Source: Spinacia oleracea (lineage: Eukaryota; Streptophyta; Magnoliopsida; Caryophyllales; Amaranthaceae). Taken from it: DNA of 64,000 bases. Where the stretch lies: contig NC_079491.1 of the NCBI RefSeq assembly GCF_020520425.1, forward strand, positions 28,573,449-28,637,448, given 5' to 3'. A program made the translations under genes and the position numbers. The notes under the pieces are model-generated. The model worked only from the letters and a program-made list of their open reading frames with translations. It was not told where the DNA came from and did no database searches. Numbering within the stretch: position 1 is the stretch's first letter; each line of letters opens with the position of its first letter. Shown here in pieces: positions 2,470 to 38,400 of this stretch.

Positions 2470-3060
2470 ACACGGCAGCCACGATGGGCCGCCCATGCGC
2501 GTGCGTGCGAGCGGCAGCCCACGCAGCGAGGCCTGCGCGAGCTACAAGCCCACGTAGCTCCTGCGCGCGATGCGCGCGCTGCCACGGCCTGCTGGGCCTG
2601 GCCTTGCGCTGGGCCTGGCGTGGCCTTGGCTGTTCGTGTGGCGCGCTTGGCTTGCTGGGCGATGGCCTGGCTTCGTGCTGGGCCCTCGTCCGGTAGGCCT
2701 CGTCCGATGCTTATTCGTACGATACGCTTCCGATTAAATTTCCGATTCCGGAATTCATTTCCGATACGAACAATATTTAATATTTCCGATTCCGGAATTA
2801 ATTTCCGTTTCGAACAAATATTTAATATTTCCGTTTCCGGAATTATTTTCCGATTCCGACAATATTTCCGATTCTGACAATATTTCCGTTTCCGGCAATA
2901 TTTCCGATTCTGGCAATATTTCCATTTCCGACAATATTTTCCGACACGTACCATGTTTCCGTTTCCGGCAACATCTACGACTTGGATAATATTTATATTT
3001 CCGATACGATCCATATTTCCTGTTTCCGGTAATATCATCGTTTCCGGAGTATTCATTTCT
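2470..3060 (-). repeat. GC-rich block and TTCCG motif array in LTR U3
   Basis: From 2470 to 2700 the DNA switches abruptly to very GC-rich sequence built on GCTGGGCCTGG and GCGCGC words. From 2720 to 3060 there follow about twenty TTCCG-containing units with spacers such as ATATTTAATA and CAATAT, several forming the palindrome TTCCGGAA. All lie upstream of the TATA box. The same arrangement is present in the other two LTRs (11405-11990 and 17975-18510). Confidence 0.8.
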
Positions 3061-9544: not shown

Positions 9545-10090
9545 CGTAACGCAAACACCCTACGCATTGCACGCCCATGGGCCGCACGCATACAGCCATT
9601 GCTGGCCATATGCACGCAGCCCATGCGCTCGTCGCATAGCTGCTGCATCTCCATCGCAAGCCATCGCACGCTGTGGTGCTTGCTTCGCGCGCGCCAGCGC
9701 TCGTCGCACGCGAGCCATCGCTCGCAGTGCGCGCTCGCCAGCGCTCGCTGTGCGCGCGAGCCATCGCTCGCTGGGCGCGCGACATCGCTCCTGTGCGCGC
9801 GAGCAACGCTGGGCGCAGCGCTCGTGGCACGCGAGCTTGCGCTCGCTGCGGGCGAGGCTGCGCGCTCTTGCGCGAGGCAGCGCGCGTCGTGGCGCAGCTC
9901 GCTTGCTGCCCACACGCGACTGCCTTGGCTTGCCTTTCGCCCATGCCCATTTGTTCATAGCTCGTGGCCCACGACACAAGGCAGGGTTGCTGCCTTGTGC
10001 TCGTGCACTACGCCCTTGCTCATTGCATTCGTGCCGCACGGGCGACGAGCTTTCTTGCTCGTCGTCGCATGCCCGCACTATACAACACCC
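9545..10090. repeat. GC-rich tandem array in Copia leader
   Basis: A block built on words such as GCGCGAGCCATCGCTCGCTG and CAGCGCTCGC, repeated with variation, embedded in otherwise very AT-rich DNA. On the minus strand it lies about 0.8-1.3 kb after the PBS, in the 5' leader or start of gag. It opens in several frames on both strands only because stop codons are rare in GC-rich sequence; none of those frames resembles a gag protein. The homologous block in the outer copy (16130-16710) has a different repeat number. Confidence 0.8.
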
Positions 10091-10870: not shown

Positions 10871-12293
10871 TGTTAGGTTATGATACATATGATATTACAT
10901 AAATCATGCGGAAACAACCATTAACCCAGGATTACATATTGTTTACACATAATCATATAGCATAATTTAGATGCATACTCTTTGTTGCGTGCCCTCCCTA
11001 GGTGCGCCCGAACCGAGCAAGAACAAGTCTTTAGGACTCCAAGTGTCGTCCCTCCGTAGATAGTCCACAGCACGTCCGGATCCGCCTTAAGATTGACCAA
11101 CTAGAATCGCCCTTAAGGTACTAGAATTTTCGGCACTTTTGAGCAAGATGTGTGGCTGAATTTTTCTCTCAAAAACTCACTTTGAATACTTGAAAACTCG
11201 TTATAAATTGTGAACCCAGGCCACATATTTATAGGGGTATGGAAAGGGAATTGGAATCCTATTCAGATACAAATTAATTAAACCTAGAATCCTACAAGAA
11301 CTCTAATTAATTAATTTATCAAATAGAATTAGGAATTTAATCATTAACCGAACTCTGCATGATCTAGGAATCGTGCATGAACACAAACACTTACGCACAC
11401 ACACACGGCAGCCACGATGGGCCGCCCATGCGCGTGCGTGCGAGCGGCAGCCCACGCAGCGAGGCCTGCGCGAGCTACAAGCCCACGTAGCTCCTGCGCG
11501 CTGGGCGCGCTGCCACGGCCTGCTGGGCCTGGCCTTGCGCTGGGCCTGGCGTGGCCTTGGCTGTTCGTGTGGCGCGCTTGGCTTGCTGGGCGATGGCCTG
11601 GCTTCGTGCTGGGCCCTCGTCCGGCAGGCCTCGTCCGATGCTTATTCGTACGATACGCTTCCGATTAAATTTCCGATTCCGGAATTCATTTCCGATACGA
11701 ACAATATTTAATATTTCCGATTCCGGAATTAATTTCCGTTTCGAACAAATATTTAATATTTCCGTTTCCGGAATTATTTTCCGATTCCGACAATATTTCC
11801 GATTCTGACAATATTTCCGTTTCCGGCAATATTTCCGATTCTGGCAATATTTCCATTTCCGATAATATTTTCCGATACGTACCATGTTTCCGTTTTCGGC
11901 AACATCTACGACTTGGATAATATTTATATTTCCGATACGATCCATATTTCCTGTTTCCGGTAATATCATCGTTTCCGGAGTATTCATTTCTTGCCTGTGA
12001 CGATCTCAGCTCCCCCTGAAACCAAGATCCGTCGATTCCGAATATTCATAGATGGAGTATTTAATGCCATTAAATACTTGATCCGTTTACGTACTATTTG
12101 TGTGACCCTACGGGTTCAGTCAAGAGTAAGCTGTGGATTAATATCATTAATTCCACTTGAACTGAAGCGGCCTCTAGCTAGGCATTCAGCTCACTTGATC
12201 TCACTGAATTATTAACTTGTTAATTAATACTGAACCGCATTTATTAGACTTATCATAGAATGCATACTTGGACCAAGGGCATTATTTCCTTCA
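10871..12293 (-). repeat. 5' LTR of inner Copia (1423 bp)
   Basis: Nearly identical to 1938-3362 with the same TG..CA ends. It contains the TATA box at 11224-11233, the GC-rich block and the TTCCG array. Visible differences from the other LTR include three substitutions near 11003-11020, a small indel near 11500, and single changes near 11624, 11865 and 12014. Confidence 0.95.
11224..11233 (-). promoter_or_regulatory. TATA box of inner Copia 5' LTR
   Basis: CTATAAATATG on the minus strand, at the same place as in the other LTR. Because this is the 5' LTR it would be the promoter used for the full-length element transcript. Confidence 0.6.
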
Positions 12294-16129: not shown

Positions 16130-16710
16130 GCAACGCAAACACCCTACGCATCGCACGCCCATGGGCCGCACGCACACAGCCATCGCTGGCCATGTGCGCG
16201 CAGCCCATGCGCTCGTCAAATAGCTGCTGCATCTACCCATCGCAAGCCATCGCACAAGTTGGTGCTCGTTGCGCGCGCGCCAGCGCTCGATGCACGCGAG
16301 CCATCGCTCGCTGTGCGCGCTCGCCAGCGCTTGCTGCGCGCGCTCCAGCGCTCGATGCACGCGAGCCATCACTCGCTGTGCGCGAGCCATCGCTCGCTGT
16401 GCGCGAGCAATTGCTCGCTGCGCGCGATCGACGTTGGGCGCAGCGCTCGTGGCACGCGAGCTTGCGCTCGCTGCGCGCGAGGCTGCGCGCGCTTGCGCGA
16501 GGCAGTGCGCGTTGTGGCGCAGCTCGCTTGCTGCCCACACGCGACTGCCGTGCCTTGCCTTCGCCCATGCCCATTCGTCCATAGCTCGTGGCCCACGACA
16601 CAAGGCAGGGCTGCTGCCTTGTGCTCGTACACCATGCCCTTGCTCATTGCATTCGTGCCGCACGGGCGACGAGCTCCCTTGCTCGTCGTCGCATGCCCGC
16701 ACTATACAAC
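16130..16710. repeat. GC-rich tandem array in outer Copia leader
   Basis: Counterpart of 9545-10090 with the same CGAGCCATCGCTCGCTG-type words, but with a different arrangement of units between 16255 and 16440. It is evidence that this array changes copy number between family members. Confidence 0.8.
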
Positions 16711-17444: not shown

Positions 17445-18820
17445 TGTTAGGTTATGATACATATGACAATTCATAAATCATGCGGAAACAACCATTAAGC
17501 CAGGAATACATATTATTTACACATAATCATATAGCATAATTTAGATGCATACTCTTTGTTGCGTGCCTTCCCTAGCTGCGCCCGAACCGAACAAGAACAA
17601 GTCTTTAGGACTCCAAGTGTCGTCCCTCCGTAGATAGTCCACAGCACGTCCGGATCCGCCTTAAGATTGACCAACTAGAATCGCCCTTAAGGTACTAGAA
17701 TTTTCGGCACTCTTAGGTAAGAAATATGGCTGAATTTTTCTCTCAAAACTCACTTTGAATACTTGAATTAATCTCTGAAAATATGTGACCCTAGGCACGT
17801 ATTTATAGAGTTATGGAAAGGGAATTGGAATCCTAGTAGGATACGAATTAATTAAACTTAGAATCCTACAAGAACTCTAATTAATTAATTTATCCTTTTA
17901 GGAATAGGAATTTAATCATATACTAATTCTAATAGTTTTAGGAATCGTGCATGAACACAAACTCACACACACACACGGCAGCCACGAGGGCCGCCCATGC
18001 GTGCGTGCGAGCAGCAGCCCACGCAGCGAGGCCCATGGCCTTAGGCGCGCGCTGGGCCTGCCTTGCGGTGGGCCTGGGCGCTGCCTTGGCTGGGCGCGCG
18101 TTTGGCTTGCTGGGCGATGGCCCGACTTCGTGCTGGGCCTTCGTCCGGCAGGCCTCGTCCGATGCTAATTCGTACGATACGCTTCCGATTAAATTCCCGG
18201 TTCCGGAATTCATTTCCGATACGAACAATATTTAATATTTCCGATTCCGGAATCAATTTCCGTTTCGAACAAATATTTAATATTTCCGTTTCCGGAATTA
18301 TTTTCCGATTCCGATAATATTTCCGATTCTGACAATATTTCCGTTTCCGGCAATATTTCCGATTCTGGTAATATTTCCATTTCCGATAATATTTTCCGAT
18401 ACGTATGTACCATGTTTCCGTTTCCGGCAACATCTACGACTTGGATAATATTTATATTTCCGATACGGTCCATATTTCCGTTTCCGGCAATATCATCGTT
18501 TCCGGAGTATTCATTTCTTGCCTGTGACGATCTCAGCTCCCACTGAAACCAAGATCCTTCGATTCCGAATATCCATAGATGGAGTATCTAATGCCATTAA
18601 ATACTTGATCCGTTTACGTACTATTTGTGTGACCCTACGGGTTCAGTCAAGAGTAAGCTGTGGATTAATATTATTAATTCCACTTGAACTGAAGCGGCCT
18701 CTAGCTAGGCATTCAGCTCACTTGATCTCACTGAATTATTAACTTGTTAATTAATACTGAACCGCATTTATTAGACTTAACATAGAATGCATACTTGGAC
18801 CAAGGGCATTATTTCCTTCA
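17445..18820 (-). repeat. 5' LTR of outer Copia (1376 bp)
   Basis: Same TG..CA ends and overall plan as the inner LTRs but clearly more diverged. The U5/R region differs at many positions around 17710-17810, and the GC-rich block (17975-18140) is shorter. The TATA box is at 17801-17808. The right flank starts CCTAA; the matching left duplication is outside the window. Confidence 0.93.
17801..17808 (-). promoter_or_regulatory. TATA box of outer Copia 5' LTR
   Basis: Minus strand reads CTATAAAT, at the position equivalent to the boxes in the other LTRs. Confidence 0.5.

Positions 18821-22464: not shown

Positions 22465-22527
<63 letters not shown>
22465..22527. repeat. (TA)n microsatellite
   Basis: About 31 uninterrupted TA units just outside the left end of the MULE composite. 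Any frame through it giving alternating Tyr-Ile is an artefact. Confidence 0.95.
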
Positions 22528-22529
<2 letters not shown>

Positions 22530-22649
22530 CTTGCTTTATACTTTCTTACAAAAATTTGAATAAGACGGACTGACAGCGTCAGACGGGTGACGTGGCGGCG
22601 CGGGTCGTGACGCGGGTCAGGACGCGGGTCAAATCCGAATCGGGTTTAG

Positions 22650-22658
22650 TATAAAAGG
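22650..22658 (+). promoter_or_regulatory. TATA box for the plus-strand MULE gene
   Basis: TATAAAAGG follows the GC-rich terminus. It is followed by a leader rich in TTCTTC/GAGAGAGA (22700-22786) and a splice donor CTGTAAGT at about 22788. Confidence 0.55.
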
Positions 22659-22948
22659 TTTTCTTTCCCACGTTTTTGCCCATTTCCAAATCACTGTTCA
22701 CTTTTAGAGAGAGAAACCGCCGAGTTCTTCCATTTCAGGAGAGAGAAAGCTTCTACTCTTTGTCTTCTCTTCGATTTCTTCAATTTCTGTAAGTTTTTTG
22801 CATTTTCACTTGTTTTTCTTTGTTCGTGTGTAGTTCTTACTGATTTATCCTCTCTTTTTTCGTTCGATTTAGGGTTTTGAAGGTGTGATTGTGATATTTT
22901 CCGATTTACTTCAAGTTTCGGTAAGTTCTTTCTATTTTCATCTACTTT

Positions 22949-23248
22949 TTGTTCAATTTTGTCATCATTTGATGTTCGTTTTGTTTCTTACTGTTTTTGG
23001 TTTTGATTTAGGGTTTTGTAATTGTGATTTGTGATAATTTCGGTTGCTCTTCATTTTCGACAATATTTTTGAAGTTTTGTTGTCATTTTTTCTTCTTTTT
23101 GTTCAATTTTGTTATCATTTGAAGTTCGTTTTTGTTTCTTACTGTTTTTGGTTGTGATTTAGGGTTTTGTAATTGTGATTTGTGATACTTTTGGTTGTTC
23201 TTCATTTTCGACAATATTTTTGAAGCTTCTTGTCCTTTTTCCTTCTTT
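22949..23248 (+). repeat. Tandem duplication of about 150 bp in 5' leader
   Basis: Two copies, starting near 22949 and 23099, share TTGTTCAATTTTGT, CTTACTGTTTTTGGTT, GATTTAGGGTTTTGTAATTG and TTCGACAATATTTTTGAAG with a few differences. It lies in the leader or first intron of the plus-strand MULE gene. Confidence 0.8.
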
Positions 23249-23309
23249 TTGTTCAATTTGTTCATAATTTGAAGTTTGTTTTGGTGTTTTTGTTCAATTT
23301 GTTCAATTA

Positions 23310-24800
23310 AAAGTTCGCTGATAAATAGTTAGTTTTTTAATCAATTAGTTAATTATTTTTACCAATTAGTTATTCTTTCAAAGCAATTAGTCATATTCTG
23401 ACATTCATAAATCAAGTATTAAACGAATTAGTTAATTTATTTAATTTCAAACTTTCTTGAGCAATTAGTTCACTTTTTTGACCAATTAGTTAATTGCATA
23501 ATCCAATTAGTTAACTATTTTAACCTGTTAGTGAAACATTCAAAGCAATTAGTTATACAATGAAATTGTTTTGTTTTTATTGCTATTTATACTGCTTATG
23601 TTCATTACACATTCTTTTTATTTGCGCATTGAAATATATTGAACTACATTCATTTATAGTTTCAGTTCACATAATGAGGTCAAAAAATGCAAACAAAAAA
23701 TCGGATTATCACGATGTTGGGAAGTCGAGTCAAGATGTTGAAGGCAGTTCAAGGCCGACTGAAGATATTCCAGCTAGTCCAAAGCTGAGTGCAGATGAGA
23801 GGAAAATTGGAAGGGGGCCAAAGAAGTCGAAAGTTAAAGTAGAATATACGGAAGATGGCGGGGAAGTTGTAGAGTTGGATAGGTATAACTCCTATCTTTG
23901 TAACTGTTATTTATCACTGTTTAATTAGTTGGATAGGTATGACTATTTAAAAATTGATTTTGCAATTATCATAACTTATTTTACATTTAGTGAACTTTTT
24001 GCATAATTTAGTTAACTTTTGACTGCAATTAGTTAAATATTTTTCAGTAATTAGTTAACATTTTTTAAAAAGAATCTTTCCACTAATTAGTTAACTTTTT
24101 TCACTAATTAGTTAACCTTTTCCATTAATTAGTTAACTTTTGACTGCAATTAGTTAACTCAATAATTAGTTTACTTTTGACTGCAAATAGTTAAATTTTT
24201 CCATTAATTAGTTAACCTATTTCATCAATTAGTTAACCTATTGCATGATTAGTGAAGTTTTTTTCAGTTAGTTAACCTATTTCATTAAATAGTTAACCTT
24301 TTTCTTCAATTAGTTAACCTATCTTTGTAACTGTTATTTATCACTGTTTAATTAGTTGGATAGGTATGACTATTTGTTATTTATTTTTTAATTAATTACT
24401 TTTGCTTTGAAACAAATTATTTTACCTATATGAAGTAGTTATGTAATTAAAATAATTAGTTAACCTTTAAACACAATTAGTTAAATATTTTTCAGTAATT
24501 AGTTAACCTTTTTTTAAAAAGAATCTTTCCACTAATTAGTTAACTTTTTCACTAATTAGTTAACCTTTTACATTAATTAGTTAACTTTTGACTGCAATTA
24601 GTTAACTCAATAATTAGTTAACTTTTGACTGCAATTAGTTAACTTTTTCCATTAATTAGTTAACCTATTTCATCAATTAGTTAACCTATTGCATGAATAA
24701 TGAAGTTTTTTGCAGTTAGTTAACCTATTTCATTAAATAGTTAACCTTTTTCTTCAATTAGTTAACTTCTTAAGCAATTAGTTAAATATTTTCATTAATT
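23310..24800 (+). repeat. AATTAGTTAAC minisatellite in intron 1 of the plus-strand gene
   Basis: Irregular units of about 19-24 bp such as TTAATTAGTTAACTTTTT, with the T-rich side downstream on the plus strand. A larger internal duplication repeats about 23990-24370 at about 24440-24760, including the word AAAAGAATCTTTCCACTAAT. The array starts already in the leader near 23310 and fills the intron between exons 1 and 2. Confidence 0.9.
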
Positions 24801-25850
24801 AAATTCTTTTGTTTTGTGTAGGGGTTACAAACTAAATTGTAGACCAGAGGTGTTGATTAATCTTCTTAATTCTATAAAGAAGAATGAAAACAAAGTGAAA
24901 GCCATTAAAGAGATTGGTTTTGGTGGTTTGTTGAGTGTTCGACTTCATGAAGTCAACACACGCCTTGTTCCATGGCTGCTTCAACATTTTAATTGTGTTG
25001 GTCATATGCTCCAGTTTGGAGAAACACAAAATGTTCAGTTATATGATTATGATGTCTAGGACGTCTTTGGCTTGCCATGGAACAAGGATTTTGATGTTCA
25101 AGAAACGCCAAGAAAGCGGGTTGAAGAAGATGCCAACCATGAAATGATTCAAAGATGGAATGAGAAGTTCCACAAGAAACCAACTGTTCAGGCACCCACC
25201 TTGACGGAGTTGGAATCTTTTTTGAAAACAGATGAATGTGGAGATGATTTTAAACGTGCCTTTGTGGTATATGTTTTAGGTAAAAATTTCTAAATTAATT
25301 ATGCTCAAGTTATTTACCTTTAACAGCAAGTATATAGTTCACTATTTACATTAATTAGTTTACCTTTTTTTTATTAATTATTCTTCTTTTTTCATTAATT
25401 AGTTCATTTTAATAATTAGTTTACCTTTTTTATCCATTAGTTACTGTTTTCATCAATCAGTTAACCTATTTTACATTTAGTTAACTTTCTTCATCATTTA
25501 GTTAACTTTTTACATTAATTAGTGAACTATTTTTATGAATTAGTTAACCTATTATCTTATTGATTTCTGTAATTATCTTATTGTTTTTATAGGTGTATTT
25601 TTGGCTCCTACGTCTAACCGGTTGTTAGACATCAAGGTTTTGAAGGCTGTTGAGGATGTTTCACAGATTGTGAAACAAAATTGGTGTAAATACGTGTTAA
25701 ACCAGCTTGGGTTTGCTGTCGAGAGGTGGAGAGCGAGTGTCAAAAATGACAAGGTTGGTGGCTGTGTTCTATTTTTGGAGATAATTTATCTCCAAAGATC
25801 GTTATTTCGGGGTGTAGTCCCCCCTAAGGAAATCCCACTTGTTCAATTAG
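23674..25850 (+). pseudogene. MULE-borne accessory gene, unknown function, broken by an in-frame stop
   Basis: Three exons can be read. Exon 1 (23674-23882) starts MRSKNANKKSD after a splice acceptor TTTCAG and encodes a hydrophilic, charged N-terminus with GRGPKKSKVK. Exon 2 (24822-25279) encodes IGFGGLL, VPWLLQHFN and DVFGLPWNKDF. Exon 3 starts at 25593 and encodes APTSNRLLDIKVLKAVED, QNWCKYVL and VGGCVLFLEIIYL. GT/AG borders keep the frame. The blocks resemble the plant proteins often found next to FAR1-type transposases inside MULEs, some of which continue into a Ulp1-type cysteine protease. No protease part is seen here. A TAG at 25057-25059 interrupts exon 2, and after about 25850 coding gives way to minisatellite, so the 3' part is lost. 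No function can be assigned. Confidence 0.65.
25290..25590 (+). repeat. AATTAGTTAAC minisatellite in intron 2 of the plus-strand gene
   Basis: The same family and orientation as in intron 1 (ATTAGTTAACTTTTT), filling the intron between exons 2 and 3. Confidence 0.85.
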
Positions 25851-26170
25851 TTAACTTATTACTTCAAATAGTTAACCTTTTTTCAGTTAGTTTACTTTTT
25901 ACATTAATTAGTTTACCTTTTGCATCCATTAAGCTTTTAACAATAATTATTTAACTTTTTCCATCTATTAGTTAACTTGTCCCATCAATTAGTTATCTTT
26001 TTCATCAATTAGTTATTGTTTTAACTTTTTAACAACTTTTTCAATCAAGTAGTTAATCAATTTAGGTAACTTTTACTGCAATTAGTTAACTTTTTACTAC
26101 AATTAGTTAACTTTTTACAGCAATTAGTTAACTTTTTGCTGCAAAAAGTTAACTATTTACAACAATTAGT
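25850..26170 (+). repeat. Minisatellite replacing the 3' part of the plus-strand gene
   Basis: Starts directly behind the last recognisable codons of exon 3 (VVPPKEIPL). It contains the left arm (25903-26137) of the long inverted repeat, whose partner is 26951-27184. Motif orientation flips at about 26180. Confidence 0.85.
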
Positions 26171-27184
26171 TAAGCATAAATAGATGGTACAAGTTAACTA
26201 ATTGATGAAAAAGTTAACTAATTGAGGGAACAAGTTAATTAATAGATGGTACAAGTTAACTTATTGATGATAAAAGTTAACTAATTTTTAGAAAAAGGTA
26301 ACTAATTGATGATAAAAGTTAACTAATTTTTACAAAAAGGTAACTATTTGAGGGAAAACGTTAACTAATTGAGGGAGCTTATTTTGAATTATTTACTTGG
26401 TATATTTCATAAGTCAGTCAGTCAATCTAATTCAATATATTAGTTAAGCATTAAATTCAATTAGTGAAATATCAAATTCAATTAGTTAAAACTTATTAAT
26501 GAAAATAGTTAACTAATTGATGCAAAAAGTTAACTATTTGGTGGAAAAGGTTAATTAATTGATGGTAAAGGTTAACTAAAGAGTGGTAAGTTCAACTAAT
26601 TGATGCAAAAAGTTAACTAATTTTAGGTTAACAATATTAGTTAAACATAGTCATCCTGCATATTGTGACGTCAACAATAATTACAGTAACTTGACTTTTG
26701 AAAATGAAATCAATTAGTTAACTAATTGAGGGAACAAGTTAACTAATTGATGAAAAAAGTTAACTAATTGAGGGAACAAGTTAAATAATTTTTATAGAAA
26801 GGTAACTAATTGATGGAAAAAGTTAACTAATTGATAGAAAAAGTTAACTAATTGCTGAAAAAAGTTAACTAATTGATGGAAAAGGTTAACTAATGCATTG
26901 TAAGGTTAACAATATTAAATAATTGAGGGAAGAAGTTAACTAATTGCTGTAAAAAGTTAACTAATTGCTGTAAAAAGTTAACTAATTGTAGTAAAAAGTT
27001 AACTAATTGCAGTAAAAAGTTACCTAAATTGATTAACTACTTGATAGAAAAAGTTGTTAAAAAGTTAAAACAATAACTAATTGATGAAAAAGATAACTAA
27101 TTGATGGGACAAGTTAACTAATAGATGGAAAAAGTTAACTAATTATTGTTAAAAGCTTAATGGATGCAAAAGGTAAACTAATTA
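25903..27184. repeat. Long inverted repeat, arms about 235 bp
   Basis: Arms 25903-26137 and 26951-27184 are reverse complements with only a handful of differences over more than 230 bp. The match includes non-repetitive words such as TTTGCATCCATTAAGC and ATCAAGTAGTTAATCAATTT, so it is not merely the shared minisatellite unit. The spacer is 813 bp. It lies between the 3' ends of the two convergent MULE genes. Confidence 0.9.
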
Positions 27185-27415
27185 ATTGATGAAAAAGTTA
27201 ACTAATTGATGGAAAAAGTTAACTAATTTCTGAAAAAAGTTAACTAATTGATGGAAAAAGCTAACTAATTTCTGAAAAAATTTAACTAATTGATGGAAAA
27301 GGTTAACTAATGCATTGTAAGGTTAACAATATTAAATAATTGAGGGAAGAAGTTAACTAATTGAGGGAACAAGTTAACTAATTGCTGGTACAAGTTAACT
27401 AATTTGATAAACACT
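26180..27415 (-). repeat. Minisatellite in reversed orientation between the convergent genes
   Basis: Units now read GTTAACTAATTGATGGAAAAA on the plus strand, i.e. AATTAGTTAACTTTTT-like on the minus strand. A 70-bp stretch with GCATTGTAAGGTTAACAA occurs twice directly (about 26872-26944 and 27285-27360). A fragment at 26645-26675 duplicates the intron/exon border of transposase exon 6. Confidence 0.88.
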
Positions 27416-28060
27416 AAATTCAATCCAATGTCACTAAAAAAAATTGTTCTTTTGGTGTAAAAGTTCCAAATTCTGTAGGTGCTGTTGACGATGTCCTTAT
27501 CTCAAAGTATCCTTTTTTTCTTTTACTTCTTCCTTTTGTCTTCACTAGTGGTGGATTTTCAACTATTATTTGTGGTGCATTTGATGATGATGATGATGTA
27601 GACGGTGCTATGTTGATTGTGGTTTGTTGTGCTTCAACATCGTCTTGTGCCTTTTGTGCTGCCTCCTTTTCTGCTGCTTTTTCTTTTTCTAGAACCTTAT
27701 TTATGCTTTCGTTAGCATGAGCATAAGCCTCTTTAAGCACCTATTAGTTAAGATTTAAAGCAAACTAGTTAGACTCTTGAAGTATTTAGTATTTTTTGTT
27801 ATGTATTAGTTAAATAATAGTTATTAAAAACCTTTTTAGCTGCATCACTCCCTTGACATTTAATAACCAAGTTGTACAAATTTCTTGCCATCTCATAACG
27901 CCATGGAGTAATTTTTCTCTTTTCTGTTCCATTATCTTCTCTATGTTCCATTCTCTTCCATACTTCACTTTTTGCAAACTTTGTCCACCTTTTTGAAATG
28001 TATTGCTCTGGAATGTTGACAATAGAATGTATATGTAGAACTCGTATTGCATGGAAACAT

Positions 28061-30463
28061 CAATCCCACTTGCATGGACCCGGTCCACGCTATAATTAGC
28101 ATGGACCAGGGTATTTTCGTAAATTAGCAGTGGTGGAGCATGGATCATAAATATTTTACCTAAAGAGTAACTATATGTTCTGTAACGTAACTATGTATTC
28201 ATAATAGTAACTATGAAAAAATAATAATATAGTCATTTCGATAAGAATAACTATTCTATCCAAAGAGTAACTATATCATATAAAAAGTAATTTTAACTGT
28301 AGAACAGTTACTACGAAGTATATTATAAAATAAACAATATAATATAAAAAATTAGAAACTATATGTTCTGTAAAGTAACTATATCTTCATAATTGTAACT
28401 ATGAAAAAAAAATATAGCCATTTCGATAAGAATAACTATTCAATCCAAAGAGTAACTATATCATATAAAAAAATAACTATAGAACAATTACTATATTATA
28501 AGATAAACAATACGATATTGATGCTTTAGAGGTAATATAGTAACTTTTTTCTATTATATAGTTACTATTATATATCGTATAGTTACTAAATAAAAAAGAG
28601 GAATTATAACTCTTGGACAATAATTAAGAAAAACATTAACTACATAGTTGGTTGTTTTAAGCTATGACATTCTAATTATTTGCATCTATTAAATAAATCA
28701 CATTAAACTCAAATGATTTTTGAACTAAAAAATATATTAATCGCCACTTTCACGCACATCCTTCCTTCCTCTACCACGTCCTTGGTTTTCATTGTTGTCG
28801 GGATTTTCTTCTTCTTTTTCTCCTACTTTTGTTTTCCTTGTAGAAGTTATTCTTTGCACGACTTCAATTATGGATGCATCATCTTTGTATTTCTGAATCA
28901 ATAGCATATAAACTAAGTTAATAATTTAACATTTAAATATGAAAAAGTAACATAGTAACTATTTTGAACATATAGTTTATATTATACATCATATAGTAAC
29001 TCTTAGATTTAATGATGGTAAGATACTCGCAAAACTGCAGATATAGTTATTGTTATAGTCATATAGTTACTGTCATAATAATATAGTCACTCTTATTATT
29101 AATAACACAGAGAACAAAAAATTATGAATATAAAAAGAACATAATGATAACAAATCATGATAAAATAAACATAGTACCTATTTCAAATATATAGTAACTA
29201 TATAAACCATATAGTATCTATATAAAACATATAGTGACTATTATTATAATATAGTAACTATTGTACACATATAGTAACCATTATAATCATATAGTCACTA
29301 TCTAAGAATCGGACAAAAACATACTCTAAATAACATAGTACATAATGTAATCGTATAGTAACTATTATTTATCAAAAAGTCACTATAAACTGTTCATAAC
29401 ATAATAACTATCTTAAACACATAGTTACTGTTTTAAACTTATAATAACTTTCTAAAAAATATAGTGATTATTTTAAACACATAGTTACTGTTTTAAAGTA
29501 ATAGTAACTTTTAAAAAAATATAGTTACTCTAAAAACTACTACTAACATAAACACAATGAACATTCCAGTGATATTAAAACACTATTTCGCAACATAAAT
29601 TAAAGGTGACTATATCATTTATATACTAACTATGTGAAACACTAACCCTTATTTCAACAAAACAACAAACATTTCAAATCACTCAACAAAATAATAACTA
29701 TTGTACACATATAGTAACCATTAAAATAATATAGTAACTATTGTACACATATAGTAACCATTAAAATTACATAGTACCTCTTTAAACCATATAGTTATTG
29801 TATTACTCATATAGTTACTATTTAAAATCGTGAAGTCACTGATCAAATTCGCGAAGTGAAAGTGATATTTCGGTAAAACACAAACATTAATTTCTTCAAA
29901 ACAACAAATATTTTCAATTTTAAATAAAAATAGACTTAAAATTCTTTAAAAAACAACAAACCGAGATGTGATCTCTAAAAATTCTTGCGAAGATTTGTAG
30001 GCGAGCGCAAATTCTTCGATTCGATTTCGGCAACGACGAACCTCCTTCTTGATCTACTACTTCCTCCAATTTTTCCTCATCTAATAGATAAAATTATAAA
30101 AATTATAAGATAATTACGAAGAAAATCGAACAAAACCTAGAAATTTGGGCTAAATTTTGAAAAGCATAGAGAGAAAATGAAGAGAGAGAAAATGAAAGAG
30201 AATGAACAGAATGTAGATCTGAAATTTTGAAAAATAAAAAAGTTTAAAACGTATATAAAGTGGGTTAGACACAAATCGCATTGAAACTCTACAAAACACA
30301 TAGTAACTCTTTAAAACACATAGTTACTGTTATACGTATATAGTTACTATTTAAAATCACAAAATAACTGTCACGTGACAGTTACATATGTTGCCCATAC
30401 AAATTACTCCGTTGCCCTGGTCCACGCTAAGTTAGCTTGGACCAGGTTTATATTAGTGTAAAT
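28061..30463. mobile_element. DNA transposon inserted in the SWIM exon of the MULE transposase
   Basis: The 10-bp word ATGGAAACAT flanks the insert on both sides (28051-28060 and 30464-30473). Removing the insert and one copy restores the frame TGG CTA TGT TTC CAT GCA, giving WLCFHA of the SWIM finger. Near each end lies an imperfect palindrome (28078-28111 and 30415-30447) built on GGTCCACGCTAA..TTAGC.TGGACCAGG, and the two are also inverted copies of each other. The interior is filled with ATAGTAACTAT words and has no convincing gene. A 9-10 bp duplication suggests a non-autonomous MULE. Confidence 0.75.
28160..30400. repeat. ATAGTAACTAT-rich array inside the inserted transposon
   Basis: Dozens of near-palindromic words (ATATAGTAACTATT, CATATAGTTACTGT) on both strands at irregular spacing of about 20-30 bp. 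A direct pair of about 130 bp occurs near 28175-28320 and 28365-28500. It is distinct from the AATTAGTTAAC family outside the insert. Confidence 0.8.
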
Positions 30464-30489
30464 ATGGAAACATAGCCATCATGCATATT

Positions 30490-31160
30490 GTGACATCAAA
30501 ATATTAACTAATTGATGAAAAAAGTTAACTAATTGATAGAAAAAGTTCACGAATTGATAGAAAAAGTTAACTAAGTGATGAAAAAATTAATTAGTAAATG
30601 GTACAAGTAAACTAATTGATGAATAAAGTTAACTAATTGTACAACAAACTAACTGAAGTGAATACAAAACTAGGTACCTTAATAGTATAACTAATTCATG
30701 GAAAAGGCTAACTAATTGATAGAAAAAGTTCACTAATTGATAGAAAAAGTTAACTAAGTGATGAAAAAATTAATTAGTAGATGGTACAAGTAAACTAATT
30801 GATGAATAAAGTTAACTAATTGTACAACAAATTAACTGAAGTGAATACAAAACTAGGTACGTTAATAGTATAACTAATTCATGGAAAAGGCTAACTAATT
30901 GATAGTAAAAGTTCACTAATTGTTAGAAAAAGTTAACTAATTGATGAAAAAATTAATTAATAGATGGTACAAGTAAACTAATTGATGAATAAAGTTAACT
31001 AATTGTACAACAAACTAACTGAAGTGAATACAAAACTAGGTAACTTAATAGTATAACTAATTCATGGAAAAAACTAACTAATTGATAGAAAAAGTTCACT
31101 AATTGATAGAAAAAGTTCACTAATTGATAGTGTATGTAAAAATGCAATTAGTTAAGAGCA
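30490..31160 (-). repeat. Minisatellite in intron 5 of the transposase gene
   Basis: AATTAGTTAAC-type units in minus orientation. A higher-order repeat of about 185 bp (TAGGTACCTTAATAGTATAACTAATTC-like start; further unit starts near 30850 and 31040) occurs about three times. It fills the intron between the SWIM start in exon 5 and exon 6. Confidence 0.85.
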
Positions 31161-31569
31161 TTAACTAACCTGATTCTTCGAAGTTCCTACAAGTGCATTT
31201 AATGGAATTTGTTGTTGGATCAAATGCTACATAATGGGCAGTATGTTCAGGCCAAGATTCATGTTGCACTTTGTAACCAAAGAAATTTCCATTGATGTAG
31301 TTGACATTTGAGATGCAACCCATTGCATACTTGAATTCTTTTTCAAAATCTCTAAACAATGTAAGTGTGTAAACATTTGCCGCATGTTTTATCATTCCGA
31401 CCATTGGAAAATCAGATTTAGGCAAAGCATTTCCACAATCATATTCATTTTGATCTTCTTGATATCTCCAACGATCCACTGTTGCTCCAAAAATGTGAAA
31501 GAATTCTGTTAGTGAAGTGATTTGTTCCCTTTAAATCCAATTGCATTGTTAGTGCTCTCACTCCTGTGT

Positions 31570-31885
31570 AACAAGATTGAATTAGTTAAACATTCTATTT
31601 AATTAGTTAAGCAGGTACAGGAATTAGTTAAGCAAACAAAGGAACTAGTTAAGAAGGTGAAACATTTAGTTAAACATTTTGTTTAATTAGTTAATCTTTC
31701 TGATTAATTAGTTAAGCAGGCAAAGGAATTAGTTAAGTAGATGAAACAATTAGTTAAACATTGTGAAGTATTCAAAGCAATTAGTGAAGTATTCATAGTA
31801 ATTAGTGAAGTATTCATAGCAATTAGTGAATTATTCTGAGCAATTAGTTTAGCATTAAAATAATTAGTGGACTTCTTTTATTTAA
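31570..31885 (+). repeat. Minisatellite in intron 4 of the transposase gene, opposite orientation
   Basis: Units such as GGAATTAGTTAAGCAGG and ATTCATAGCAATTAGTGAAG read on the plus strand, although the host gene is on the minus strand. It is an exception to the general orientation rule of this repeat. Confidence 0.8.
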
Positions 31886-32199
31886 GCATTTACCTTTGTG
31901 AAGACAATATTGCAGCTGAGAAAAAATCTTTGTTCAAAGCTGTACACCATTTTTCTTTTATTGTATAGAGATTTGTAAACCAATCATGATCTTGAAGGTT
32001 ATACTTAGTAATCATGTCAAACCAAGTGGTTTCAAATTCTTCTTCATTGTAACAACGATATAAGCACTTCTTGAATGTGTCTTTGAATGTATTGTCAGCT
32101 TTTAAGTCTCCAAATCTTGACACGGCATTCTTTTGTAAGTGCCATAAGCATAATCTATGTCTTGTATTAGGAAATACCTGCAATTTTTTTGATGAATGA

Positions 32200-32580
32200 T
32201 GTATTAGTTAAGAATTTAAACTATATAGTTAAGTCGGAACAGAATTTTGTATTAGTTAGGAATCTGAAAATGATGCAAAAAGTTAACTAATTCATGCAAA
32301 AAGTTAACTAATTCATGCAAAAAGGTAACTAATATATTATTAAAACAAAAGTTAACTAGTTCATGCAAAAACTTATCTAATTCATTGCAAAAGTTAACTA
32401 ATTGATTCAAAAAGATAACTAATGTATGTAATAGGATAACTAATTGATGGAAAAAGTAACTGATGAATGGATATCAATTTAGTTAAACTTTTCAACTCAT
32501 TAGTTAAAGACCAGTAGCAAATAGTTAACAATTTTTAGCAATTAGTTAACTATAAAACCCAAATAGTTAATACACTCTTA
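32200..32580 (-). repeat. Minisatellite in intron 3 of the transposase gene
   Basis: Mostly GTTAACTAATTCATGCAAAAA on the plus strand (minus orientation), with a short plus-oriented stretch at 32470-32575. Confidence 0.8.
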
Positions 32581-33159
32581 CTTGTTCAATAGCATTTGCC
32601 ATTGCTTGATCTTGATCTGTAAAGATAGTTATAGGTGCTTTGCCTCCCATAGAGTCCAGAAATGTTTCCAATAGCCACACAAAAGTGTGTGTCTTCTCAT
32701 CAGCAATAAAAGCACAACCAAACATCACATTACTCCAATGGTTGTTGACACCTAAAAATGGCGCACAAACTAAATTGTATTTGTTTGTTCTGAAAGTTGT
32801 GTCAAAGACACAGACATCACCATATACGTCATAATCTTCTTGCATCATTCCATCCCTCCAAAACATGCTTATTACTTGGTTTGCCTCGTTCACCTTTACT
32901 CGAAAATAAAAGTTTGGATCTTCTTCTCCTCTCTTAATTAACATGTTCACAACTGCTTGTGTATCTTTTCCTTCTAGTCTTTTCATTTTCAATCTACTTG
33001 TGAAATTCATGTGGTCAACTAATGTGTGTCCAACCACCCTTGCGTCGCCAGCTTCATTACACATATATCTATAGGAATCTGCTGGTGTTATTCCTGATAG
33101 TGTGAGTCCTTCAATTACTTTTCCCTTTTCTTCATCAATTTTTCTTTGTGATCTGGAAA

Positions 33160-33590
33160 TGATGCAAAACGTTAACTAATTGTTGTAAAAAGTTAACTAA
33201 TATATGCAAAAAGTTAACTATTTGTTGTAAAAGGTAAATAACTAATATATTATTAAAATAAAAGTTACCTAATTCATGCAAAAACGTAACTAATTGATTG
33301 AAAAAGTTAACTAATTGATGAAAAAGTTAATTTATGGTTTTAGGAAGTAAGTAATTGAGGTAAAAAGTAAACTAATTGATGCAAAACGTTAACTAAATGT
33401 TTTAAAAAGTTAACTAATGCATGGAAAAGGTTAACTAATTTATGAAAAAAGTTAAGTAATTGATGGAAAAAAGGTAAGTAACTGTTTGATCTAGTTTATT
33501 ATTAAAACAAAATTATTTAAACGCTTAAGTAATTAATGTCAAAGCCTAACTAAATATATTTAATGGTTAACTAATTACTTGTATTTTGTT
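33160..33590 (-). repeat. Minisatellite in intron 2 of the transposase gene
   Basis: GTTAACTAATTGTTGTAAAAA-type units in minus orientation fill the whole intron between exon 2 and exon 3. Confidence 0.85.
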
Positions 33591-34059
33591 TTGTACCTTT
33601 CAAAGTTTTGCAGTGACTCTCTTGTTAAGGCATGATTGTGTTCTATAACATGATGAAAGACTATAAACTTTCCATCCTTTTGTAACTTCAATCGTATAGA
33701 TGCGTTGCACCCTGTTCTAGTAAGGTTTTGCTGCCTTGCGTTCTTTGACTGCTCTTTCTGTTTGCTCTCACTTGATACAGTTGCTTCTTCTTTCTTTGTG
33801 TTCTTTGTGTTTTCCTTTCTCTTTCCTTCCTTTGAACAACAAAAGTATCTTTCCTTTATCTCTCCCGTTTTTTGATCTCTCCTTAATGTGTTTTTTCTTA
33901 TTGAAAATCCAAGAAGTATTGAATGTTTGTCATAAAGTTCATATAGTTCATCTACAGTGCCAGTATATCCAGTCAAAGGTCCTCTAATATCATCCTCTGT
34001 TAAATCGTTCCAAATATCTTTTGAACCTGTAAAATGAACAAAAGTAATAATTAACAAAA

Positions 34060-34660
34060 GAAACTAATTAGTTACATAATTCAGGAAATTAGTTAACCAA
34101 TTGAACTAATTGAGAGAACAAGTTAACTAATTGATGATAAAAGTTAACTAATTAAGGGAACAACTTAACTAATTGATGGTACAAGTTAACTAATTAAGGG
34201 AACAACTTAATTAATTGATGGTACAAGTTAACTAATTGATGATAAAAGTTAACTAATTGATGATAAAAGTTAACTAATTGCTTCAAAAAGTTAACTATTT
34301 GGTGGAAAAGGTTAACTAGTTGCTTCAAAAAGTTAACTATTTGGTGGAAAAGGTTACCTAATTGATGGTAATGGTTAACTTAGTGAAAAATGAAATTTGA
34401 AAAGTAGCTTTAAAAAAAATTAGTTTAGTATTGATATTATTTAGTTAAGTTCTTAAAGAAATCAGTGATTTATTTAAATTAAAAGTTCCTTTATATATTA
34501 TTTAGTTTATTATCCAATTAGTTAACTATTTTGACCAGTTAGTGATTCTTTCAAAGCAATTAGTTAACCGATTTGTTTAGTTTTTTTGCCGCTTAGTTAA
34601 TTGCACAATCTAATTAGTTACGACAAGTAATCAATTAGTTAACTATATTCATTAAATTAA
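34060..34660 (-). repeat. Minisatellite in intron 1 of the transposase gene
   Basis: Minus-oriented units at about 34090-34390, including a doubled TTGCTTCAAAAAGTTAACT segment. They are followed by plus-oriented, more diverged units at 34430-34660. It fills the intron between exon 1 and the FAR1 domain exon. Confidence 0.85.
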
Positions 34661-35397
34661 TTTTAAAACCTGAAAAATAAGCTGATGTTGTTTCTCCTGT
34701 TGTTGCAGAACTTGTTTCAGATGTGTTTTCCTTTGTTCCAGAACTTGTTTCAGTAGTTACTTGCTGCAATGTTGTAAAAGCCCTTTGATTAGGGTTATCA
34801 AATTGCGCAGAAGGTTGAAATCGAGAAGGAGGATGAAGATCGCTTTGATAATGGTTATCAAAACGGGCAGGAGGTTGAAATCGAGGAGGAGGATGTAGGT
34901 CGCTTTGGTTAGGGTTATCAAATCGCGCAGGAGGTTGAAAACGAGGAGGAGGATGACAGTCGCGAGGTTGAAAAATCGGTGGTGGTAGAAATCGAGGATG
35001 TTGAAGGTGGCGAGGTTGAAAATTCGGTGGTGTTAGAAATCGAGGAGAATGTTGAAGGTGGCGAGGTTGAAAACTCGGTGGTTGAAATTGTGGCGGAAAC
35101 ATCTGTGTTGGTTGTTGAAATTGTGGCGGAAATAATGGTGGTGGTGGTTGAAAGCCGTCGGCCATGTCTGATTTGAAAGTTGTCGGCGGTGATTGTGGCG
35201 GAAATATCGGTATTGGTGGTTGAAATTGCTCATAGCCGCCGTCGCCCATGCCGGATCTGAAAGTTGTTGGCGGCGATTGCGGCGGAGCAAGCTGAATAAT
35301 TTCGCAAAATTAGATTAGGGTTTGAGAAAGGATGTCGCTGTTGTGAAGAAGGAAGGAGGAAGGAGGAAGGAGGAAGGGAGAGAAAGAAATATGAGAT

Positions 35398-35412
35398 TTC
35401 GTATTTATGTGG
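35398..35412 (-). promoter_or_regulatory. Candidate TATA region for the transposase gene
   Basis: Minus strand reads CACATAAATACG immediately inside the GC-rich right terminus, about 150 bp before the ATG at 35249. A purine-rich stretch on the plus strand (GGAGGAAGGAGGAAGG) gives a pyrimidine-rich leader on the transcript. Confidence 0.4.
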
Positions 35413-35483
35413 CGCGTGAAGCCCACGCGCGCGTGGGGGAGTCAGCGGACTGACAGGCGCGTGGCCGTCAGGCCGCCTGACAG

Positions 35484-38400
35484 AAAACGCGCTGATACTT
35501 TCTCATTTTCCTCCTTGTAGGGGGTTAAAGTACGTTGAAAGGCAAGTAGTCAAAATATTATAAACGCCATAATAAAGAACTTTAATTTTGGGTTTCATAA
35601 CAATAAAACTCAATACCTTGTCCAAATTATAACAATAACTTGGTGCGATTTCAATTTAAAATGGAAAAATAGAGTTTTCATGGAGATTTACTTTATTACA
35701 ATTATTGCCACTAAATAAATAACACACAGAGACACTAATAAAAAAAGGATTCTCAACACTTATTGGGCATTATGCTATTATATACGAAATAATTAAATAA
35801 GCCTCTAAAAAAGTTCAAAGAAACATGCAATTATAAGTCTATAAAAATGGAGTACAAAAAACATTACTAGAAGAAAATCTTATGGAAATTTTAAAAAAAA
35901 TCTTTTTGAAGAAAAATAACACTATAATTTTTGTTTCTGTAAAAGCAAAATCATGAATCTTATAGAAACAACCATTTTTTTTTTAAAGTAAACTGATGAA
36001 GAAAATACGACTTGTTAGGGAAAAAGGAAAAAAAGTGAAGAATTTAGAGAATTAACAAATGACAAGTAAAAGACGAAAAAATTCATATTCAATGTCCTCT
36101 TAGGATTTTTCGAACCAAAACAACCTATGTAGCATTATCAATAAGCAACCATTTTGCTACAGGTATATTTCATTATCATTATTGTAAGTTAATTACACAT
36201 ATATTAATTATTTTAAGTGCAATTAATTACCTCAAAATCAGTTTAACCATTTTTTATAAAAATAAAACCGGGGTTCCTTTAGACCCTTATAGGACCATAT
36301 ATATATGGACGCCTCTGACTGTGGCGTGTCGTTCACGTGCTTTTTTTTAATTGGAAAATTTGTCAAAATAGGCCTTTTATATGTTTGACTTTGCGAGAAA
36401 AAAAATCTTTTATATTTTTCTAAATTTGGCAATTTCATACGTAGTACCTTATTATTTTTATTGTTTTTGCAACAAACAACCTTTGTTACCTTTTATTGTG
36501 ATTTTTTTTTTTAATTGTCGTGCTAGCTAACATCATTATAATCTTACATTTAGATAATAAGTAGAATTAATGTTGAGGCCTAAAACTAGTTAGAAGGAAT
36601 TCCAACATGTCAGAGATCAAGGAATACATAACTCTAATATGCTTCTCAAAGATTGCTATAAGAATTCCAATAATATGTTAAAGGGATGCAAGAGAAAACC
36701 AATCATCTAGTTAATGGGTAAGTTGGATTAGGAGGATGGTATACTATGCAAAGGGTTTTAGCAAAAGGGAAGGGCTGAAGAGCTTTGACGGGATCATAAT
36801 GCTATATGTAATTAAGATAATCTAATTCATAGGGGTCTAGTAGAAGTGAGTAGCATAATTGATTAACCAAGTAGACTTACATAAATTTAAAGTTGATCAT
36901 GAAAAAGACACATTTGTTTAATTTGGAAATAAAGGTATGTTTCTGCTACATGCTAGATACGTGTAATTCCATGAGTATTCCTTGTTGACGTGTCATGACA
37001 TGCACCCACAAGAGAAAGTAAAACATGATAATGAGAACTTAATTCACCATGCATACCATATACAAACATATGCCAAGGTTTGTGCTTATATATTTACATT
37101 CATGTAAGGTCATAACTAGTGGGAAGTTACACCTTACCCAGAACCTCTTCCTCCTACTTACATGAACATGGTTGGTAGGACTAGCAAAAAGAAGAGGGCA
37201 AAGGAACAAGAGGAAGGTCATGATAAACATAAGAGAGGCAATCAAAACAAAATAATAAGTTCAGTTCCTTTATGACTTCCATGTGAATCTTGAATGATTT
37301 TAACACAATAAAATAAAATCATCTTCCAATAAAATATTTCAAATGTTGTTTCTCGCAAAAAACAATAAAAAAATTACGGTTAGAAATTGCCAAAAAATTA
37401 TAAAAGGCTATTTCTCGCAAAGTCAAACATATAAAACGTTTGTTTTGGCAAATTTTCCAAGAAAAAAAAACGCCCGTAATCGACACGTCATAATAAACGC
37501 CGGAAGGTCAACCCCTGAAAATGAACTAACCATGTTTCGCACAATTTTTTTTAAAAGGTCTGAATTTGTCAGAAATTTCATAAAAGATTATTTCTCACAA
37601 AAGTAGACCTATAAATTTTTTTTTTTTAAATTGCGAATCTAAAATTAGTTTAACTTAGTTATTTAGAAGATTGAATATGTATTAGCCAATGATCATCATT
37701 TTAGCTAATACCGTACCGGCCTAGTGTCCTACATATTCACACGATTTCTAGTCTAGTCAATATTCAGAATAACAGAAAGGTAGTCCACATTTTGAAGATT
37801 ATATTTGACTAAAGAAAGAAAACAAAAAAATTTGAGTCTGAGTGTAACGATGTTACAAATGCATAAATGTTACTATTTGTGTTGGGTTACAAATAGAGAG
37901 ATAACATAATGAATTTAATAGTGAAAGTTAAGTCAAAGAAGAATCCATGAGGTGTTGCCGTGTTGGTGGGAGAGTTGTTGATAAGTTACCTTTGAACTTT
38001 GACATCATACACTCGAGTATTCAATTTTTCATAGCATGGCCAATAATTTTAAATAGTTTATGCAAGAATCAATAGGGTTGATAACTATTTAGGTGTAAAG
38101 AAGATTGTTGCAAGGTAGACGTGATTTGATCACATATGTTGAACAAATCTTTAAAACTTTAACCAACTAAGTTAGTTGACATTCATATTAACAAAGGTAA
38201 TTACGAGATTTATCAGATTTCATGGCAATAATACGTCTTACTAACTATATTCTTCGTATATGATTTAAACTTATCTTACTCGGAACAAATTGTATATAAA
38301 ATTCCTCGTAAGGTTTAGACTGTCCAACACTTAGAGCAAGACATCAACTTCCTTAGAGGAAACTAATCAAAATAATCGTTCATAAAAAGGTATCCTAGAT

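Follow-up and report, generated by a model that had tools for sequence, protein, structure and literature searches.

A 21-bp minisatellite in the introns of a Kaonashi-type MULE family of spinach and the orientation of its arrays

Kaonashi (KI) Mutator-like elements (MULEs) of Arabidopsis and the ULP-carrying MULEs of grapevine, melon, and rice are described, in the available parts of two reports, as having no terminal inverted repeats, a mudrA-type transposase, and a ULP-type gene in the reverse direction (PMC2528002, PMC6117577). An element with all of these features was recognized in a 64,000-nt stretch of the Spinacia oleracea genome (GCF_020520425.1, contig NC_079491.1, positions 28,573,449 to 28,637,448 of the forward strand), hereafter the window. 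Its introns and the tail between its two convergent genes are filled by one 21-bp unit, whereas tandem repeats are unmentioned in the same parts of those reports (PMC2528002, PMC6117577). Tandem repeats arise in and travel within transposable elements, such as Gmr9/GmOgre from soybean and PisTR-A from pea; the available text places repeats of this type in untranslated regions (UTRs), long terminal repeats, or tails (PMC9659126), whereas the spinach unit occupies many introns of two genes. The CeRep25B minisatellite of Caenorhabditis elegans is, as far as the accessible part of the source goes, 75% intronic with a proposed link to splicing (PMC4039745). The 21-bp unit is likewise a mostly intronic minisatellite, but CeRep25B is found in host genes instead of a transposon and forms clusters on chromosomes III and II (PMC4039745). 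No description of tandem repeats in the introns of MULEs or other transposons was found in titles and the beginnings of abstracts, in a search that left subscription journals mostly outside.

Related copies from this single genome still show how the repeat spread: introns without an array, the corresponding introns with an array, and inverted copies between the convergent genes. Older antisense units appear to have been joined later by sense arrays, some of which would be inverted copies of plus-gene introns. The sense orientation is most simply read as a feature of one branch of the family, produced by few copying events. The growth of transposon introns, and what may enter them, is thus made directly testable. 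The case is also a caution that an orientation bias over hundreds of units can stem from a handful of copying events.

The element and its minisatellite

The two genes of the element (Table 1) differ in their products. The minus-strand gene has seven exons and encodes a mudrA-like MULE transposase (Pfam MULE, 1.4 × 10−28; FAR1, 1.2 × 10−18), while the PMD and DUF1985 matches of the plus-strand gene stay below the Pfam cut-offs in the window copy. In another copy, A2, the plus gene runs on to nine exons (by eye), one of which corresponds to a Ulp1-type C48 domain. This domain scored 4.7 × 10−7 in A2 and 9 × 10−7 in the sister element B1, and its strand is opposite to that of the transposase. 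An earlier sequence-only reading had proposed one minisatellite in most introns of two MULE genes. The repeat is indeed in nearly all introns, but of the two genes, the minus gene alone encodes a MULE transposase.

Both genes are broken in the window, the plus gene by an in-frame stop and a large deletion that removed the C48 part, and the transposase gene by a frameshift and a 2.4-kb nested insertion. The deletion junctions connect exon P4 (around 25846) with the array of intron P8-P9, and this array (around 26173–26179) with the tail; introns are named here after their flanking exons, P in the plus gene and M in the transposase gene. The strand flip that the sequence-only reading placed near 26180 is present, but in the window it is a deletion junction, and in A2 the flip lies just beyond the last plus-gene exon (by eye).

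The ends of the element were set where resemblance is lost among 11 copies on the right and 3 copies on the left. A 9-bp target-site duplication was observed in two of the three copies in which both ends were seen, ATACTTTCT in the window and TATTTGTAA in A7 (by eye), and that of A5 is imperfect (by eye). Visual inspection of 3 left and 11 right ends revealed no terminal inverted repeats, and a short GACTGACAG is found near both ends. Judged by its transposase, duplication, lack of terminal inverted repeats, and opposed ULP gene, the last present in A2 and B1, the window element is a KI-type MULE.

A 21-bp profile with the threshold 9 detected 176 units in the window, every one within 23342–34652 and thus inside the element, while 20 dinucleotide shuffles of 22500–35500 yielded 1.1 units on average and 2 at most. 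The tandem period is 21, and length changes by whole units, as expected of a minisatellite: intron M3-M2 is 382, 403, 424, 444, 464, or 466 nt long in 11 copies, most of the steps being close to 21 or 42 nt. The plus-gene introns in the window contain 42 units on the plus and 2 on the minus strand, and the transposase-gene introns 58 on the minus and 17 on the plus strand. Pooled, these are 100 sense and 19 antisense units, which bears out the earlier statement that units mostly follow transcription. The exceptions it listed, 31570–31885, 32470–32575, and 34430–34660, are genuine flips of the core. When arrays of at least three units are counted instead, 7 are sense and 3 antisense (p = 0.34). 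Exons contain 1 unit and the tail 56; from left to right, 25841–27419 has 12+/1− and then 0+/43−. The density is higher in the tail (35.5 per kb), which is not a known intron, than in introns (25.1 per kb). The shortest intron (27741–27831) has no unit at the threshold 9, and a mean of two one-mismatch cores over 11 copies.

Copies and a sister element in the same genome

In a search with the MULE exon, 150 of 1245 candidates were scored. They comprise 29 full-query matches of at least 94% identity including the window (group A), 4 partial matches at 94–98%, 12 at 75–85% (group B), and 105 at 52–69%. Ten group-A copies were taken at length and analyzed with the window; depending on the intron, placement succeeded in 4 to 11 of these 11 copies. 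Units were found in five of the six transposase-gene introns and in all eight of the plus gene, where P5-P6 and P7-P8 have only 1–2. Sense and antisense units number 961:17 in the plus gene (919:15 without the window) and 632:179 in the transposase gene (574:162 without the window), and the tail has 1 unit on the plus and 420 on the minus strand. Exons contain 30 matches in 55,170 bp; all 14 in P4 result from the mapping of the truncated window exon, and the other 16 are in M3 (11), P6 (3), and P9 (2).

Shorter loci of 3.6 kb were collected from 28 group-A copies, the ten long ones included, and each intron was counted in 27 of them, some clipped at the end. With minus as the sense strand, M3-M2 has 0+/436−, M4-M3 75+/244−, M5-M4 242+/23−, and M2-M1 134+/319−. 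Two antisense cases stand out. M2-M1 contains 13–14 antisense units in L026, L027, L028, and L032, those in L026 being of group-A type. In A3, intron P2-P3 contains 7 antisense units and exceeds the 918-nt form by 148 nt. The strand counts over copies are thus unequal in group A, as the sequence-only reading expected, but the arrays are shared by descent, and the transposase gene of B1 shows the reverse. Because arrays are inherited together and amplified locally, single units are not independent, and their use as independent evidence was dropped. Counted as arrays, full-length elements show 10 sense and 3 antisense (p = 0.09).

The exact 16-mer AATTAGTTAACTTTTT has 1225 matches in the genome, compared with 10 for a reversed control, and the 11 copies contain 317 of them, about 29 per copy. 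Among the 100 matches listed, all from contig C1, 99 fall into three clusters, each of which includes a group-A transposase exon. The 21-bp repeat therefore appears to belong to the element family rather than to introns at large.

B1 is the sole group-B element that was read, in two pieces (L038 and L059), and is 85% identical in the MULE exon. In five sampled stretches of its transposase-gene introns, the core AATTAGTTAA with at most one mismatch has 39 plus-strand occurrences, which are antisense to this gene, and 4 on the minus strand; in its plus-gene introns and tail the corresponding counts are 38 and 1. Nearly all cores are thus on one DNA strand, which makes them sense in the plus gene but antisense in the transposase gene; in B1, the orientation of units goes with the DNA strand rather than with transcription. 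The antisense state persists in group A in M5-M4 and next to the donors of M4-M3 and M2-M1. The introns of B1 are at corresponding places, and their array content is different. P6-P7 has 21–22 units in group A versus none in B1, and P5-P6 has 1–2 units in group A versus 23 cores in B1. The variable half-unit of B1 differs between the two genes in a transcription-linked direction (28 and 39 units, permutation p = 0.0025, the units not being independent).

The nested insertion in the window contains a 20-bp repeat of the type ATATAGTTACTATT in both orientations, and its exact form ATATAGTTACTATTCTAAA has 61 matches in the genome. Of these, 49 have one of 61 distant (family-C) transposase exons at most 15 kb away, the genes involved numbering 34, and all 49 share the strand of the nearby transposase gene, although these copies are related; the other 12 have none of the 61 exons nearby. 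Family C was placed by coordinates alone, as 61 of the approximately 105 transposase rows at 52–69% identity, the rest being mostly of a shorter D type. Group A, B1, and the repeat near family-C transposases thus have a TAGTTA core in common.

Origin of the sense arrays

Two introns were found with and without sense arrays. In L036, M4-M3 has 209 nt and 3 antisense units, and its length in B1 is 210 nt; the window form has 404 nt, the flanks of L036, and 8 additional sense units, a block whose end resembles that of intron M3-M2 on the 3' side (by eye). The sense units of M2-M1 number 0 in L033 and L035, 1 in L037, 5 or 7 in five copies, and 12–19 in 19 of the 27 loci. In an M3 tree rooted on B1, L036 is outside the remaining group A (0.89), and L033, L035, and L037 group with the L026 clade. 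As the support for this grouping is modest (0.77), gain and loss of the M2-M1 array are not firmly separable. Introners are likewise one repeated sequence in many introns of a genome, but their insertion generates an intron along with its splice sites. The arrays described here enter the interior of introns that already existed: the M4-M3 and M2-M1 arrays are inside introns whose ends match array-less copies. As a separate observation, 32264–32276 at the end of the M4-M3 array resembles the 3' splice-site region of M3-M2 at 33153–33165 (by eye), a possible decoy acceptor at mid-intron.

Long matches within A2, A5, and A8 (at least 70 nt, at least 86% identity) connect the compartments. Each of the eight inverted matches has one partner in a plus-gene intron and the other on the transposase side or in the tail, and all seven direct matches are within the tail and the transposase side, one of them labelled P9 since exon P9 of A5 is cut there. 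Inverted matches join P6-P7 with M6-M5 in all three copies (285–306 nt, 87–89%), P8-P9 with the tail in two copies (558–566 nt, 86–87%), and P6-P7 with the tail in one copy (114 nt). An inverted copy between the two genes retains the sense orientation because the genes converge. A 38-nt landmark is found on the plus strand in P6-P7, on the minus strand in the tail and M6-M5, and once in L036 (minus strand), and it is sense wherever placed. The 99% inverted match between 25903–26074 and 27015–27186 was considered as private to the window; this was rejected, since all eight copies with both parts placed have the two arms of the 172-nt P8-P9/tail copy at 97.7–100%. Within copies, units are most similar to others of their own array (109.3 of 246 versus 26.6 expected, and 110.2 of 248 versus 30.2, in two copies). 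Block-shuffle z-scores between introns (12 shuffles each, 132 comparisons) were not used, being inflated by a shuffle that breaks the unit phase.

The segment 26645–26690 in the tail duplicates the 3' end of M6-M5 and continues into a copy of the start of exon M6 (by eye). A block crossing a splice junction suggests that DNA, not excised intron RNA, served as the template. In this copy GCAG precedes the exon part, versus GCAT in the copy at 30464–30500 (by eye).

The explanation preferred here, with a probability of roughly two in three, is DNA-level copying of an old transposon-borne minisatellite that is tolerated in noncoding DNA, with at most a mild preference for a T-rich sense strand. 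It starts from what is observed: the anatomy, the orientation in each group, the presence or absence of arrays, and the inverted and direct copies. An old minisatellite would have been resident in a KI-type MULE, with units multiplying inside each array. Blocks of arrays would have been copied as DNA into other noncoding compartments of the same element, by template switching or ectopic conversion, directly among the compartments of the transposase side and in inverted form between the convergent genes. The repeat seems intron-specific, although the tail is denser, because selection would clear exons of units. The older state would have had nearly all units on one DNA strand and hence antisense in the transposase gene. 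It would persist in B1, and the sense bias of group A would be a handful of copies laid over it. A mild preference for T-rich sense strands may help sense copies persist, while antisense arrays would be tolerated. With B1 as the older state, there are five sense gains (M2-M1, M3-M2, M4-M3, M6-M5, and tail) versus two antisense, a small sample; the test of five to one, which does not include the A3 case, gives p = 0.22.

Several observations weigh against this explanation. Every traceable long match preserves sense, which is more than a blind process needs, though the sample is small. The polarity is taken from a single B element and from an M3 tree with low internal support. The M2-M1 sense array may have been lost from L033, L035, and L037 instead of never having been gained, since the allied L026 clade has 7 sense units. 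The sense strand has more T than A in 13 of 14 group-A introns (copy averages) and in all nine sampled B1 introns, three of them barely (0.004–0.041), which is compatible with selection. Among exons, A exceeds T in all seven of the transposase gene, but T exceeds A in five of nine plus-gene exons. In the antisense array 34430–34660, A exceeds T. Base composition tracks transcription better than core orientation does. Plant introns are U-rich, and the T-rich sense strands fit this nature. The available part of PMC5757305 deals with U-rich tracts and 3' splice sites.

A splicing filter could produce such a bias if sense units made introns U-rich and offered a branch-like TTAAC before a U-run, so that mainly sense insertions survived. 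The unit ratios in the window (100:19) and in the 11 copies (961:17 and 632:179), as well as the excess of T on intron sense strands, agree with it, and TTAAC followed by a T-run was found in the window only in sense arrays. However, the core AGTTAACT is its own reverse complement, and TTAAC is therefore present in both orientations. CTRAY occurs 2.4–4.0 times per 100 nt in three antisense arrays versus 0–0.5 in four sense arrays in the window, and the branch-point argument favouring sense was dropped for this reason. The transposase introns of B1 are antisense for the core (39:4), four L026-type copies and A3 have antisense arrays, the tail shows a like pattern though it is not a known intron, and the array-level ratios are 7:3 and 10:3. 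A filter of this kind is doubtful as the cause of the bias. Thus, the spread of the repeat among introns within the family and the sense lean in group A remain from the interpretation of the sequence-only reading, but orientation as a splicing rule does not. Spread templated by pre-mRNA would make copied blocks automatically sense in both genes, and the traceable long matches do preserve sense. The two antisense cases (M2-M1 of the L026 type and P2-P3 of A3), block ends inside introns, and the block that seems to cross a splice junction into an exon (by eye) make it very improbable.

Two further ideas concern what the arrays might do. The intron RNAs of the convergent genes of B1 would be complementary, and a sense-sense layout as in group A would remove this and so lower RNA-mediated silencing; avoidance of double-stranded RNA predicts the switch from the one-strand layout of B1 to that of group A. 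P8-P9 and the tail of group A are, however, long inverted repeats, a read-through transcript of which would fold as a hairpin, and little credence is given to this idea. Binding of the unit by the transposase or a host factor, for which the arrays would be kept, would suit the TAGTTA core shared by group A, B1, and the repeat near family-C transposases. The absence of any unit near either end of the window element, and the strongly different array content per intron in A and B1, render such binding very unlikely. A wider proposal takes the TAGTTA-core minisatellite as a long-term passenger of MULEs across families (about 57% transposase identity). It would move from intron to intron, its sense kept by a transcription-linked filter or template, and one family would have gone from a one-strand to a sense-sense layout. 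This is tentative and, on the whole, improbable.

Feature coordinates and neighbouring sequences

Table 1. Features of the MULE element in the window, in window coordinates.
Feature	Position	Strand	Remarks
Whole MULE element	22547..35494	.	12,948 bp with nested insertion; ends where resemblance of copies stops
Left target-site duplication	22538..22546	+	ATACTTTCT; flank sequence
Right target-site duplication	35495..35503	+	ATACTTTCT; flank sequence
Plus gene	23666..25840	+	GT-AG introns and translation; weak PMD/DUF1985 matches
Plus-gene coding exons	23666-23882, 24822-25279, 25593-25840	+	second with in-frame stop; third cut by deletion
Plus-gene 5' UTR intron	22789-23665	+	precedes first coding exon
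FAR1/MULE transposase gene	27420..35293	-	splice sites and translation; Pfam
Transposase exons	34670-35293, 33597-34026, 32582-33152, 31894-32177, 31170-31563, 27832-28064, 27420-27740	-	31170-31563 frameshifted
Array, plus-gene intron P1-P2	23342..23524	+	sense, 5 units
Array, plus-gene intron P2-P3	23984..24795	+	28 sense, 2 antisense units
Array, plus-gene intron P3-P4	25331..25557	+	sense, 9 units
Array remaining from intron P8-P9 after deletion	25844..26183	+	12 units +, 1 unit -
Tail array between genes	26184..27405	-	43 units, minus strand
Inverted-repeat arm 1	25903..26074	.	172 nt, 99% complementary to 27015-27186
Inverted-repeat arm 2	27015..27186	.	partner of 25903-26074
Nested insertion in intron M6-M5	28061..30463	.	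10-bp duplication ATGGAAACAT; own 20-bp repeat, separate from 21-bp arrays
Sense array, intron M6-M5	30494..31126	-	19 units; inverted match to P6-P7 in A2, A5, A8
Antisense array, intron M5-M4	31579..31881	+	10 units (1 sense); identical orientation there in B1
Sense array, intron M4-M3	32273..32446	-	8 units; not in L036
Antisense units by M4-M3 donor	32476..32559	+	3 units
Sense array, intron M3-M2	33162..33577	-	16 units
Sense array, intron M2-M1	34083..34385	-	14 units; not in L033, L035
Antisense units by M2-M1 donor	34438..34652	+	4 units; sense strand A-rich

The 5' UTR intron of the plus gene includes a second tandem repeat at 22941–23282 (151 bp, 2.3 copies, 91%). The right end of the element, around 35415–35494, carries CACGCGCGCGTGG. 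FAR1/FHY3 proteins bind CACGCGC, so CACGCGCGCGTGG may be a candidate site for the transposase. Directly left of the element is a (TA)31.5 microsatellite at 22465–22527; MULEs that target TA microsatellites occur in Medicago, according to the available part of the source (PMC4486113). Further to the left, three similar arrays of a TTAATATTTCCGATTCCGG-type repeat are at 2734–3004, 11665–11937, and 18189–18465, and together with GC-rich arrays of GCTCGCTGCGCGCGAG at 9678–9804 and 16264–16427 they form a repeated module.

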